Positions 3,570 through 46,304 of a stretch of 46,304 bases of DNA are shown here, piece by piece. The notes beneath the pieces were generated by a model. The model did not search any database. It was not told where the DNA came from and worked only from the letters and a program-made list of their open reading frames with translations. The DNA lies in contig VEFU01000036.1 of assembly GCA_007679095.1 (NCBI GenBank), positions 1-46,304 on the forward strand. The letters are read 5' to 3'. A program made the position numbers and the translations under genes. The DNA is from Paenibacillus bovis (lineage in GTDB: Bacteria; Bacillota; Bacilli; Bacillales; Bacillaceae_C). How positions within the stretch are numbered: the first letter of the stretch is position 1; each line of letters begins with the position of its first letter.

Positions 3570-3719
3570 TGAATTGGAATACATTTAAAAATAACCGTCC
3601 AATGCTCGTACATTGAACGGTTCATGTAATAGTTGGTTCCCATCAAGGGGATCAGCTTTTTAGACAGGAATAACCCAACCAAAATGAGCCGCTAACTCAA
3701 GGATGGGTTATTTTTTATG
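3570..3719 (+). ncRNA. Antisense RNA antitoxin of type I locus 1
   Basis: The promoter TTGAAA (3535-3540), 17-base spacer, TATAAT (3558-3563) is near-consensus and predicts a start near 3570. The RNA would end at the hairpin AACCCA...TGGGTT followed by TTTTTT at 3672-3717. It would overlap the last codons and the whole 3' UTR of the convergent toxin mRNA, the arrangement known for B. subtilis TxpA/RatA and BsrG/SR4. The same layout recurs at 33.3 kb. Confidence 0.7.
3582..3622 (-). terminator. Terminator of toxin mRNA 1
   Basis: On the minus strand AACCGTTCAATG pairs with CATTGGACGGTT across 6 bases (one mismatch or wobble), then ATTTTTA follows. It defines the end of the toxin transcript inside the antisense RNA gene. 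Confidence 0.75.
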
Positions 3720-3791
3720 GTTAAATGACAGCATTGCCACGACCAGTGCTCCAAATGTAAAAGTAAGCGTTAACGTTTCAAATACTGACAC
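3708..3791 (-). CDS. Holin-like type I toxin, 27 residues (locus 1)
   Basis: A GTG start at 3791 with a very strong site AAGGGGGTGG (3796-3805) encodes MSVFETLTLTFTFGALVVAM followed by LSFNHKK. The pattern of a short polar N-terminus, one hydrophobic helix and a basic NHKK tail is that of the 'putative holin-like toxin' family of Bacillaceae. Such peptides insert in the membrane when the antisense RNA is lost. It is much shorter than usual annotation cut-offs. The 3' end overlaps the convergent antisense RNA and its terminator. A nearly identical peptide lies at 33392-33475. Toxicity is inferred from the family. Confidence 0.8.
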   Translation of the reverse strand: MSVFETLTLTFTFGALVVAMLSFNHKK

Positions 3792-3865
3792 GCGACCACC
3801 CCCTTCCATTTCGGGAGTGAGCCAACCACCCTTAAGCACCCAAATCTATTACATATCCAATATAC

Positions 3866-33256: not shown

Positions 33257-33401
33257 ATACTAAGAATACATTAAAAAGTACCGTCCAATGCGCTAACATT
33301 GAACGGTTACTGTAATAGTTGGTTCCCCCAAAGGGAATCGGCATTTAGGCTGAAATAACCCACCCAAAATGAGCCCTAACTCAAGGATGGGTTATTTTTT
33401 A
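33257..33401 (+). ncRNA. Antisense RNA antitoxin of type I locus 2
   Basis: Promoter TTGAAA (33222-33227), 17-base spacer, TATAAT (33245-33250), predicted start near 33257. The RNA ends at AACCCACC...GGATGGGTT plus TTTTTT (33356-33400), giving about 145 nt. It overlaps the toxin stop codon and the toxin mRNA 3' UTR. Layout and promoter spacing are identical to locus 1. Confidence 0.72.
33273..33308 (-). terminator. Terminator of toxin mRNA 2
   Basis: On the minus strand ACCGTTCAATG pairs with CATTGGACGGT (one wobble), followed by ACTTTTTAA. Confidence 0.75.
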
Positions 33402-33475
33402 TGGTTAAATGACAATATTGCCACGATTAACGCTCCGAATGTAAGACTAAGCATTAACGATTCGAATACTGACAT
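33392..33475 (-). CDS. Holin-like type I toxin, 27 residues (locus 2)
   Basis: ATG at 33475 with AAAGGGGGTGG 5 bases upstream encodes MSVFESLMLSLTFGALIVAI followed by LSFNHKK, 20 of 27 residues identical to the locus 1 peptide. Same single-helix design with a basic tail. The upstream block, including CGAACGTATGTGTG (minus strand, 33546-33559), is also conserved between loci. It separates the SNF2 gene from the helicase cassette. Toxicity inferred from the family. Confidence 0.82.
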   Translation of the reverse strand: MSVFESLMLSLTFGALIVAILSFNHKK

Positions 33476-33586
33476 ACGACCACCCCCTTTCATGGGAGTG
33501 AGCCGACCACCCTTGAGTACCAAATCTATTACACTCCAATTACACCACACATACGTTCGTGTTTCTATCCTATCATTCTTTCATTT

Positions 33587-40641: not shown

Positions 40642-41904
40642 GTGGAGATGAAGAGAAATTGGGCAGGTAATTTTCAGTATAGTACGACGAATTGGCATGA
40701 ACCTGAATCGATGGAAGAGCTTCAACAATTAGTCTCACAATTAACGAAGCTACGTGTCATAGGATCGCGCCATTCATTTAATAGTATCGCAGATTCGAAT
40801 GAAAATATCGTTAGCTTGCAAAAGATGAACAAGGTGTTATCGATTGATCATGAAAATGCAACCGTTACCGTTCAAGGTGGAATTAAATATGGAGACCTTT
40901 GTCACGAGCTTCAGAAACATGGCTATGCCTTACATAACCTTGCTTCTCTACCGCATATTTCAGTTGCTGGAGCCTGTGCAACCGCAACACACGGCTCTGG
41001 AAATCACAATCAAAACTTAGCTGCAACTGTACGGGCAATGGAAGTAGTTACAGCGGATGGGAATATCGTAACTTTTTCAAAAGATCAATCAGAAGACGAA
41101 TTACACGGAGCGGTAGTTGGACTAGGGGCGGTCGGAGTTGTCGCAACCTTAACGCTAGATATTCTACCAAGCTTTCAAATGAGACAAGATGTTTACGAGA
41201 ATCTACCCTTAGCACAATTAGAAAACAATTTTGACAAGATATTTTCCAGCGCCTATAGTGTGAGTCTGTTTACAGATTGGCAGGATAAAACGTTTAATCA
41301 GGTATGGCTAAAAAACAAACTGACAGATGATCAGACTTTTAAATTGGAAGAGGACTTTTTTGGAGCAAAAGCAGCGAAAGAAAACGTTCATCCTGTACCA
41401 GGGGTTGGAGCAGAGAACTGTACTGCCCAATTAGGGGTTTCAGGAAATTGGCTAGATCGTCTGCCACACTTCCGAATGGATTTTACACCAAGTGCGGGCC
41501 AAGAACTGCAAAGTGAATATATTTTGGCACGCAAACATGCCTATGATGCTCTTTGTGCTATAAGTGAAATCCGTGACCAAATCGCACCACATTTGTTCAT
41601 ATCCGAAGTACGAACCATTGCCAAGGACGAGCTATGGATGAGCCCATCTTACAAGCAAGACTCCGTGGCGTTCCATTTTACTTGGCATGACAATTGGGAA
41701 GCAGTCCAGCACGTGCTCCCACTTATAGAAGCACAACTAGAACCTTTCCAAGCAAAACCACACTGGGGAAAACTATTTACAACCTCCCCTAAAAAAATAC
41801 AATCACTATATGAACAGTTACCTGACTTTCAACAACTGGTTACGAAGTATGATCCACATGGGAAGTTTCGCAATGACTTTTTGGATAAATATATATTTAA
41901 TTGA
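40642..41904 (+). CDS. Alditol/xylitol oxidase-like FAD-linked oxidoreductase (VAO family)
   Basis: 420 residues. An N-terminal FAD-binding PCMH domain contains GSRHSFNSIADS; His44 corresponds to the histidine that carries covalent FAD in AldO. SVAGACATATHGSGNHNQNLA follows as the second flavin loop. The C-terminal half is an ALO-type (arabinono-lactone oxidase) domain ending in HGKFRNDFLDKYIF. AldO oxidises xylitol, sorbitol and similar polyols at C1, making hydrogen peroxide. GTG at 40642 is chosen as start because AAGGAG lies 8 bases upstream; the ATG at 40648 is too distant. Cytoplasmic and monocistronic. Confidence 0.88.
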   Translation: MEMKRNWAGNFQYSTTNWHEPESMEELQQLVSQLTKLRVIGSRHSFNSIADSNENIVSLQKMNKVLSIDHENATVTVQGGIKYGDLCHELQKHGYALHNLASLPHISVAGACATATHGSGNHNQNLAATVRAMEVVTADGNIVTFSKDQSEDELHGAVVGLGAVGVVATLTLDILPSFQMRQDVYENLPLAQLENNFDKIFSSAYSVSLFTDWQDKTFNQVWLKNKLTDDQTFKLEEDFFGAKAAKENVHPVPGVGAENCTAQLGVSGNWLDRLPHFRMDFTPSAGQELQSEYILARKHAYDALCAISEIRDQIAPHLFISEVRTIAKDELWMSPSYKQDSVAFHFTWHDNWEAVQHVLPLIEAQLEPFQAKPHWGKLFTTSPKKIQSLYEQLPDFQQLVTKYDPHGKFRNDFLDKYIFN

Positions 41905-41987: not shown

Positions 41988-42076
41988 GTATTACAAATAA
42001 CCTCATATATAACAAGACCAGAGTTGAATATTGTTGAACTAACGCACCGATAGATTATTAAACTATTTGATTATGA

Positions 42077-42901
42077 TTAGGCTTGGAGAGCTTTTTGTAA
42101 TGATTTTTCCATTGTTTCTACAAAATTCTGACGTGTTTCAGCAGATAATTCTAATAGGGAAAGGTAGGGATTTAAATCTTCCAATTCGACTAATAAAAGC
42201 TCCCCTTGCTCATTCCGACAAGCATCAACTCGTTGAATTCCCCAATCAAGATTGTTCCATTCAATAAATCGTTTAGCAAAAGCTAGATCTTCTTCCGTAG
42301 GTACATACTCTTTCAATTCCCATCTTTTATCTTTATCTGGTGCATAAAGAGCATACTGAAATTCTTTGTCGATAAAATAAAATGAGACTTCATATTCAAA
42401 ATTGATAAATGGTTGTACCAATGTATTTTTCAATTCTGAATTAACTTTTTCACTCAATTCATCTTTTGTAACAAATTCCATCCCGATAGAGTCTGCTCCA
42501 TCTTTCGGCTTTACGATATACGTGTCTACACTAGGAAGTTTATTTAGGGAATCAAGGGTATCAATGGTTGGAATAACAGGAAAATGAGCATTTGTTAGTT
42601 CAATTAAATATTCTTTTCCGTTCATATCAGCCTTCCCATCAAACGAATTATATGTGTTTAAATGTTTAGAAACAATCCGGCTGCGGAATGCTTCATATTT
42701 GTCTTTAAAATTTGCGACTGGACCTGCATTTCGGAAAACAATTAAATCAGCATTATCTTCAAATGCTTCAATATCTTCAGGATGACAGATGACTAAATTA
42801 AAGGCTTCTCTAAGTTTTGAAGTTAGAAATAAATCCTCTTCATAATAGTTTCTTCCTTTTGCTTCATAATATAAATCTGTTACAAATAGTAGCGTCTTCA
42901 T
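42077..42901 (-). CDS. ATP-grasp ligase-like protein under T-box control
   Basis: 274 residues of the ATP-grasp superfamily (RimK/glutathione-synthetase-like). IVKPKDGADSIGMEFV is the ATP-binding Lys plus flexible loop, LVQPFINFEYEVSFYFID the second nucleotide strand, GIQRVDACRNEQGELLLVELEDLNPYLSL the metal-binding Glu/Asn segment. Such enzymes join a carboxylate to an amine via an acyl phosphate. The substrate is unknown and it does not match RimK, Ddl or CphA closely. Start at 42901 (AGGTGA 6 bases upstream); the longer frame translates the leader terminator. The T-box leader suggests production when an aminoacyl-tRNA, probably Ile, is short. Confidence 0.82.
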   Translation of the reverse strand: MKTLLFVTDLYYEAKGRNYYEEDLFLTSKLREAFNLVICHPEDIEAFEDNADLIVFRNAGPVANFKDKYEAFRSRIVSKHLNTYNSFDGKADMNGKEYLIELTNAHFPVIPTIDTLDSLNKLPSVDTYIVKPKDGADSIGMEFVTKDELSEKVNSELKNTLVQPFINFEYEVSFYFIDKEFQYALYAPDKDKRWELKEYVPTEEDLAFAKRFIEWNNLDWGIQRVDACRNEQGELLLVELEDLNPYLSLLELSAETRQNFVETMEKSLQKALQA

Positions 42902-42936
42902 TACGACTTCACCTGCTTTTCTTAGATTTTTGTTGC

Positions 42937-43228
42937 TAAAAAACAAAAAATCCCGTCTCAGTAAGAGACGAGATTGAAACTCGCGGTACCACTCTTGTTT
43001 AATAAGATGTTTGAAAACATTTTATTACCCTTTACAAACGTACAATCATACGTTGTCCCTTGTAACGGAGGAAACCGATAAAGCTTACTAAACATTCGGC
43101 TTTACTTCTCAGAGATGATTTTCAGTTATTATCTGAACACTGGTTCTCAGCAAAACACCAGCTCTCTTTGGAACAGAAACAATAACGTACTCTTTCTCTT
43201 CATAGAATTTTATATAAAGTAAGTTAAA
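42937..43228 (-). promoter_or_regulatory. T-box riboswitch leader, specifier probably ATC (Ile)
   Basis: On the minus strand: Stem I with AGAGAGCTGG...GAACCAG, a helix GTTATT/AATAAC, then GAAA-ATC-A as specifier loop; further down the T-box AACAAGAGTGGTACCGCGAG (42980-42999) with TGGT for the tRNA acceptor end; then the terminator AATCTCGTCTC/GAGACGGGATT and TTTTTTGTTTTTT (42937-42975). The discriminator pairing T of TGGT fits an A73 tRNA such as tRNA-Ile. All parts are in the canonical order and spacing. Confidence 0.93.
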
Positions 43229-43234
43229 TTTATG

Positions 43235-43263
43235 ATTATATATTAGACAGAAAATAAAATCAA
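43235..43263 (-). promoter_or_regulatory. Sigma-A promoter of the T-box/ATP-grasp unit
   Basis: On the minus strand TTGATT (43258-43263), 17-base spacer, TATAAT (43235-43240). Confidence 0.8.
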
Positions 43264-43470
43264 TAGTGGTAAAAGGTAAATACTTCTTTTTCCTTCTTCC
43301 ACTAACCTGCCCCGTTACTTCAATAAAAAAAAGATGTTGCCGAAACAACACCTTGTCTCACTCAAGCACCCTTTAGTTTTTGGAAGGTCGGTAACCTTAA
43401 TTATCATACTTTTAGTTTTCCTGCTAACAGTAATATTGTATAGTCTATACATAGAGAAAGGGGCTTTAAA

Positions 43471-43746
43471 ATGTATATTAAATATATTGAAGGTACATTG
43501 GACGAAATTAAAGAAGAGATAGGAAGTGATGATTTAAACAATCTATATGTGCGAATTGGTGAAAAAGTTCAGGTAGGTTCAACATTGTGTGAGGTAATTG
43601 ATATTGTACACTACCCTGGAACATATTATGAAGAAGAGTATAGTGTAGATGTTTTTGTGAAAGTAATCAAAAAACTCCCTGAATCATCTTTAGGTGCAAC
43701 TATAGCTGGGGGTGTCTTGGCTTTCCTAAATAGAAAAAAAGGCTAA
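43471..43746 (+). CDS. Small hypothetical protein, 91 residues
   Basis: Not recognised. A short beta-rich protein (YIKYIEGTLDEIKEE, LYVRIGEKVQVGSTLCEVID) with acidic Tyr-rich centre (YPGTYYEEEYSVDVFV) and a weakly hydrophobic C-terminal segment (LGATIAGGVLAFLNRKKG). GAAAGGGG lies 7 bases before the ATG. It is divergent from the T-box unit. The stop codon falls in the stem of its terminator. Confidence 0.65.
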   Translation: MYIKYIEGTLDEIKEEIGSDDLNNLYVRIGEKVQVGSTLCEVIDIVHYPGTYYEEEYSVDVFVKVIKKLPESSLGATIAGGVLAFLNRKKG

Positions 43747-43773: not shown

Positions 43774-43942
43774 GATGCGATATGTCAACCTTACATGGAT
43801 GAATATTCAGGTGAGGAAATTCTCGGATAATTACGTAAAATGCTTCTACTATGTATGTATGTATTAAGAATGATGGTTTAACTCCTCAATTAAACTGCCC
43901 CGTTAGTTGAAGAAGAATATGTAATACTTTTCATTGTACCAC

Positions 43943-46205: not shown

Positions 46206-46304
46206 ACTTACCCCTCCAATAGCAATAGGTACTGTCAATATTTTTGTGTAAATGACTTTTCAACCTCTCAAGGTAGATGATCACCTTCGTATTCAAATAG
46301 ATTT

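Follow-up and report, generated by a model that had tools for sequence, protein, structure and literature searches.

What is a tRNA-reading leader doing in front of a lone ATP-grasp ligase gene? The question is raised by a stretch of 46,304 nucleotides (nt) of Paenibacillus bovis DNA (GCA_007679095.1, contig VEFU01000036.1, positions 1 to 46,304, forward strand), called here the window, in which an earlier note, made from the letters alone, had recognised a complete T-box leader before a single gene of this kind. That recognition holds: the leader matches the Rfam class I T-box model RF00230 over its whole length (141.0 bits, E 1.5e-31, gathering cut-off 93, model positions 1-219 of 219), and promoter, T-box, terminator and gene follow one another in order inside 42077-43263. 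By its sequence the leader is specific for isoleucine (Ile), and leader and gene, which recur as a pair at different sites in many soil bacteria, appear to have spread jointly as a unit complete in itself. The features are as follows.

43235..43263, minus strand: promoter-like site of the sigma-70 type, TTGATT-17-TATAAT, 10 of 12 consensus matches
42961..43212, minus strand: class I T-box leader (RF00230), full length, from the Rfam covariance model
43117..43119, minus strand: specifier codon ATC (Ile) in the context GAA-A-ATC-A, from covariance alignment and spacing
42988..42991, minus strand: bulge sequence TGGT of the T-box, a complement of A73-CCA in tRNA-Ile(GAU), from covariance alignment and the tRNA
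42949..42975, minus strand: intrinsic terminator hairpin, 11 pairs and a T tail, alternative to the antiterminator
42909..42914, minus strand: ribosome-binding site AGGTGA, found by eye
42077..42901, minus strand: ATP-grasp ligase gene, 274 amino acids (P0001), ATG at 42901, stop at 42077

The covariance model, which the earlier note had proposed as a check of the boundaries and specifier, places the leader at 43212-42961 on the minus strand with ATC as the specifier. The intrinsic terminator overlaps the antiterminator, as is required of a class I T-box; the 3' end of the leader folds with -17.6 kcal/mol (z -2.45, an equally good fold arising in 5 of 200 shuffles), and a scan of the window for terminator-like sites found 2 against 0.7 in shuffles. 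The promoter consensus taken alone is weak evidence, as the same kind of scan gave 9 such sites where shuffles gave 6.4 (standard deviation 2.2); across 20 aligned leaders the position of the site is constant and both of its hexamers vary. Since the gene downstream is convergent (40642-41904, plus strand) and the gene upstream divergent (43471-43746, plus strand), the T-box controls, by layout, the ATP-grasp gene alone.

To read the specifier we compared the leader with the other T-boxes of the same genome, which holds 22 at E <= 0.001, of which 18 lie above the cut-off. A simple spacing rule, taking the three bases that precede six bases and GAG, gives a codon that fits the downstream gene in 15 of the 21 others, including ATC for ileS and ilvB, and fails in six (L010, L012, L016, L017, L018 and L021). 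Under this rule the T-box of the window reads ATC at the same spacing as the resident ileS and ilvB leaders, and ATC is found in all 26 related leaders detected with the covariance model, some of which come from the same strains; a follow-up pattern scan demanded ATC, so that its counts are of fitting leaders only. ATC is invariant in the alignment of 20 leaders and the base before it varies. The register AAU would turn into GAU or UAU in three loci (L034, L035 and L036) while ATC stays constant, and the register UCA/UCC (serine), though compatible with the invariance, has the wrong spacing when set against the resident T-boxes. The genome encodes a tRNA-Ile with anticodon GAT (L116) whose 3' end, A-CCA, fits the TGGT bulge. 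The isoleucine assignment and the match of the bulge to A73, both put forward in the earlier note, are thus borne out.

The choice of target is unusual, as had been suspected. All 21 other resident T-boxes have an aminoacyl-tRNA synthetase or an amino-acid biosynthesis gene as the first gene downstream (translated and named by eye), and in an earlier survey 92% of T-boxes precede genes for tRNA ligases or for amino-acid transport or biosynthesis (PMC2494555). According to a figure legend of that survey, a mupirocin-resistant tRNA ligase of Bacillus anthracis also follows a T-box, which we infer to be an Ile T-box. An odd T-box target is not in itself unheard of. The pairing of a T-box with an ATP-grasp gene was not found in the open-licence literature and could still stand in TBDB or in supplementary target lists; this enzyme as a target, its link to isoleucine and the travelling unit were found in no listing and are apparently new. 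Compared with the class I leaders of ileS and ilv genes, that of the window has the same full Rfam anatomy, ATC at the same spacing and a terminator; it differs in its target and in accompanying that lone gene in several families. Derivation as a copy of a resident T-box is unsupported, the identity of 50% to the ileS leader and 47% to the ilvB leader falling inside the range of 44-55% seen over all 21.

The leader is kept where the enzyme is closely related. A scan of one genome per species yielded 35 loci with a relative of the window protein. In 13 of them the gene is directly preceded by a T-box that exceeds the gathering score, and 13 of the 14 intact homologues of at least 84% identity have retained it. 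A full-length copy of the gene occurs in 13 of 36 genomes of the genus of genome G213, with a T-box in all 13 (these strains partly overlap the 35-locus scan). The conservation of T-box and gene, which the earlier note had proposed to check, has limits: homologues in Clostridia, in Bacteroidota and in an archaeal bin have no T-box at the gathering score, those on plasmids of Streptomyces, Deinococcus and Paraclostridium have none by a scan for the ATC pattern only, and two closer homologues, considered below, also lack it. When the Rfam structure is laid over the 18 distinct sequences among the 20 leaders, 90.0% of 824 cells are paired, against 41-49% after a slide of 1-3 columns. Column shuffles pair 89.5% of cells (2 of 500 as high as the real leaders) and give a covariation score of 0.058 against 0.071 (none of 500 as high), 2.7 pair changes on both sides against 4 (65 of 500) and 17.2 further pair types against 17 (395 of 500), so that two of five structure measures are indistinct from the shuffles and the covariation support for the structure is modest. 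A chance match or decoy T-box is ruled out by the full-length model score, the conservation and the slide control.

How, then, did the pair come to be where it is? Promoter, T-box and gene form a conserved unit of about 1.2-1.3 kilobases (kb) in Lysinibacillus, Ureibacillus, Caryophanon, Peribacillus and Paenibacillus. When the 13 other T-box loci are compared with the window by blastn, similarity begins 309-429 nt upstream of the ATG and stops anywhere from 7 nt short of the end of the gene to 44 nt past it. For a precursor peptide gene, such as adjoins the ligase genes of graspetides (RiPPs; PsnB is an example), the unit itself has 47 nt from terminator to ATG and at most 44 nt past the stop. 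Clustering of the neighbours of the window and the 35 loci finds flanking genes that are mostly unrelated, the exceptions being common neighbours in L034, L035 and L036 and one neighbour that L024 has in common with each of L025 and L054. The closest protein, 99% identical, is from a record named Paenibacillus camelliae, with which the window has in common a block at 42033-43330 of 97% DNA identity. Occurrence is sparse: with its own genome counted, the gene is present in 3 of 34 genomes at the level of the family, in 2 of 16 within the genus and in 5 of 397 in a sample of the order. In a protein tree of 42 rows the window protein groups with its Paenibacillus camelliae counterpart (96/97), and the order of most T-box copies of different genera is left open. 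As to a single origin of the T-box clade, the tree requires 2 label changes, 27 of 500 shuffles being as low, and 20 of its 39 inner branches stay open. No empty site was found: five genomes of the genus have at least the neighbouring oxidase gene in common with the window (78-83%), and in those stretches no flank matching the other side of the unit was seen. Leader and gene thus stay together in changing surroundings and appear to travel as one unit. At L044, L070/L071 and L084 a second copy of the gene without a T-box is broken by stops or frameshifts, in genomes whose T-box copies are intact.

Repeats near the edges offer a lead, from the letters of the flanks, that the unit may move by way of its ends.

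43307..43323, strand not assigned: repeat CTGCCCCGTTACTTCAA, on the upstream border of the conserved unit
42034..42044, strand not assigned: inverted 11-base match (1 mismatch) to the CTGCCCCGTTACTTCAA repeat, at the downstream edge

At 6 of the 14 T-box loci (the window, L027, L028, L030, L032 and L054) a form of the repeat with at most 4 mismatches stands 414-533 nt ahead of the ATG; by this measure none was found near that distance in the remaining 8. Overall the T-box loci, which add up to 93 kb, contain 10 matches, and 22 other loci, which add up to 140 kb, contain 2, one of them likewise upstream of the gene (L047, -325). The shorter 11-base form is matched at both edges in the window and in L024, but the window as a whole has 0.41 such matches per kb. 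Of a 14-base core, CTGCCCCGTTAGTT, there is a single exact copy in the genome of the window and there are 21 in that of L033, many on high-numbered contigs. The repeat is also present at 43895-43911 of the window.

Homologues of the enzyme reach further than the T-box does. They occur on 6 of 72,556 plasmid records, including those of Paraclostridium, Streptomyces and Deinococcus already mentioned, and on two viral contigs, neither with a T-box; a phage collection of 50,697 records held no homologue and the best match in PHROGs had an E-value of only 0.13. The PADLOC models of known anti-phage systems returned 0 families. On one viral contig (L087, 3646-4470) the homologue lies, by eye, between terminase-like and portal-like open reading frames (ORFs), and phages may carry the ATP-grasp gene as cargo.

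What the enzyme joins must be approached through its fold and motifs. The Pfam family ATP-grasp_3 scores 22.8 bits, just below its cut-off of 23.2, and is matched at E 0.01 by 21 of 30 relatives; an ATP-grasp fold is predicted along the whole protein. An alignment of the window protein with those of 29 of the 35 loci (L044, L045, L049, L055, L056 and L058, broken or partial, were excluded) shows K131, D226, E239, E241 and N244 invariant in all 30 rows; by the alignment with DcsG, these may include the ATP-binding lysine and the metal-binding acidic residues. A stretch with G16-R17 and E21-E22-D23 is invariant as well. Selection is purifying, the ratio of non-synonymous to synonymous substitution (dN/dS) being 0.060-0.184 over 14 pairs. 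DcsG, the D-cycloserine synthetase (PDB 6jil), which cyclises O-ureido-D-serine, is the only PDB profile match of the protein and its best fold match, and has the motifs VKPxDG, RVD and ExE..xPxLxL in common with it; it differs in that identity is 21%, in that the NCBIfam DcsG model scores 19 against a cut-off of 360, and in that the gene of the window is under T-box control. RimK, LysX and ArgX are similar in fold at 11-16% identity; the RimK/LysX family has no match in the Pfam or NCBIfam listings. L-amino acid ligases such as BacD or RizA, ATP-grasp enzymes that make dipeptides in Bacillus, are in none of the Pfam, NCBIfam or PDB profile listings for the protein; bacilysin genes answer branched-chain amino-acid signals via CodY. 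An aminotransferase was considered as a partner and rejected, since it adjoins the gene only in L037 and L049.

We suggest the following account. A T-box of class I, which acts by terminating transcription and reads tRNA-Ile(GAU), would control this one gene: by analogy with the T-box family, charged tRNA-Ile would let the transcript stop at the terminator (42975-42949), and uncharged tRNA-Ile would pair its ACCA end with the TGGT bulge, so that the antiterminator can form and transcription runs on into the gene. The product would be a compact ligase of the DcsG/RimK/LysX fold; to judge from that fold and its conserved motifs, it would turn a carboxylate into an acyl phosphate, to which an amine is then coupled, or close a ring. 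Its substrate would be a small, free, amino-acid-like compound and its product one made from ordinary metabolites on starvation, with the charging of Ile-tRNA serving as the nutrient signal. We prefer this account tentatively, giving it somewhat less than an even chance. The earlier note had named close relatives lacking the leader as a refutation of its own reading, and this is partly borne out by two homologues: that of Paenibacillus lautus (L026), 96% identical, has no T-box even at a relaxed threshold, its sequence farther than about 45 nt ahead of the ATG being unrelated, and in L059, 80% identical and from the genus of the window, no leader was found, relaxed threshold included.

The closest competitor is inducible protection, in which natural inhibitors of isoleucyl-tRNA synthetase, or analogues of isoleucine, leave tRNA-Ile uncharged, the T-box senses this and the enzyme disarms the agent by ligation. 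A patchy, portable single-gene unit under purifying selection with no common partner genes would suit such a role, as would the plasmid and viral homologues, none of which has a T-box, and the T-box before the mupirocin-resistant ligase, its Ile specificity being our own reading of a legend (PMC2494555). Two homologues, however, are preceded not by a T-box but by a cyclic di-guanosine monophosphate (c-di-GMP-I) riboswitch (L049, 2424-2513, and L060, 1207-1304; 80.5 and 70.1 bits, cut-off 35), each followed by a terminator-like stretch seen by eye and the former with an interrupted reading frame; these, and others behind no known RNA, misfit a sensor of a toxin's effect. We know of no ATP-grasp enzyme that disarms an inhibitor of this synthetase or an isoleucine analogue, and none turned up in a literature search on mupirocin and T-boxes. 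Protection is the less probable of the two leading readings, and the fuller version, a mobile defence unit whose T-box senses chemical attack on Ile-tRNA and whose ligase inactivates the agent, is more doubtful still.

Improbable, too, is the tagging of a resident protein or carrier with an amino acid under isoleucine starvation by a RimK- or LysX-like enzyme. RimK, LysX and ArgX score just under DcsG in fold, and an enzyme whose target is a universal protein could do without a partner gene of its own, but the profile search of PDB sequences returned DcsG alone, and VELEDLNPYLSL resembles LEMELCEPSLNL of DcsG rather than the E-x-N motif typical of RimK-type enzymes. Least of all do we credit that the enzyme makes, stores or salvages isoleucine or a precursor, the tie to branched-chain amino-acid supply drawn in the earlier note: the Ile specifier and the 92% given above speak for it, but a housekeeping supply role is unlikely because T-box-controlled ileS and ilvB genes are already resident and most relatives searched lack the gene, and a ligase uses up amino acids rather than freeing them.

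Elsewhere in the window are two copies of the BsrG RNA family (3596-3853 and 33282-33533, both on the minus strand; 111.8 and 114.5 bits against a cut-off of 55). Each overlaps a short ORF, and the two ORFs end in a similar stretch; these are probably two type I toxin-antitoxin modules. At the contig end, a 73-base stretch (46228-46300) has identical copies on four other contigs of the genome, at least 2 of which begin with it; it is a repeat that broke the assembly.

T-box specifiers have served to predict the functions of unknown genes. Here the specifier ties an unclassified ATP-grasp enzyme to isoleucine charging, in a leader-gene pair that recurs across families and genomic places, and the fact that one enzyme follows a T-box in one clade and a c-di-GMP riboswitch in two homologues gives a direct way to ask under which condition its product is wanted. 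The locus provides a small, testable route toward a new ligase activity; were the defence reading true, the T-box would serve in a portable gene unit to detect chemical attack, and not to manage amino-acid supply.
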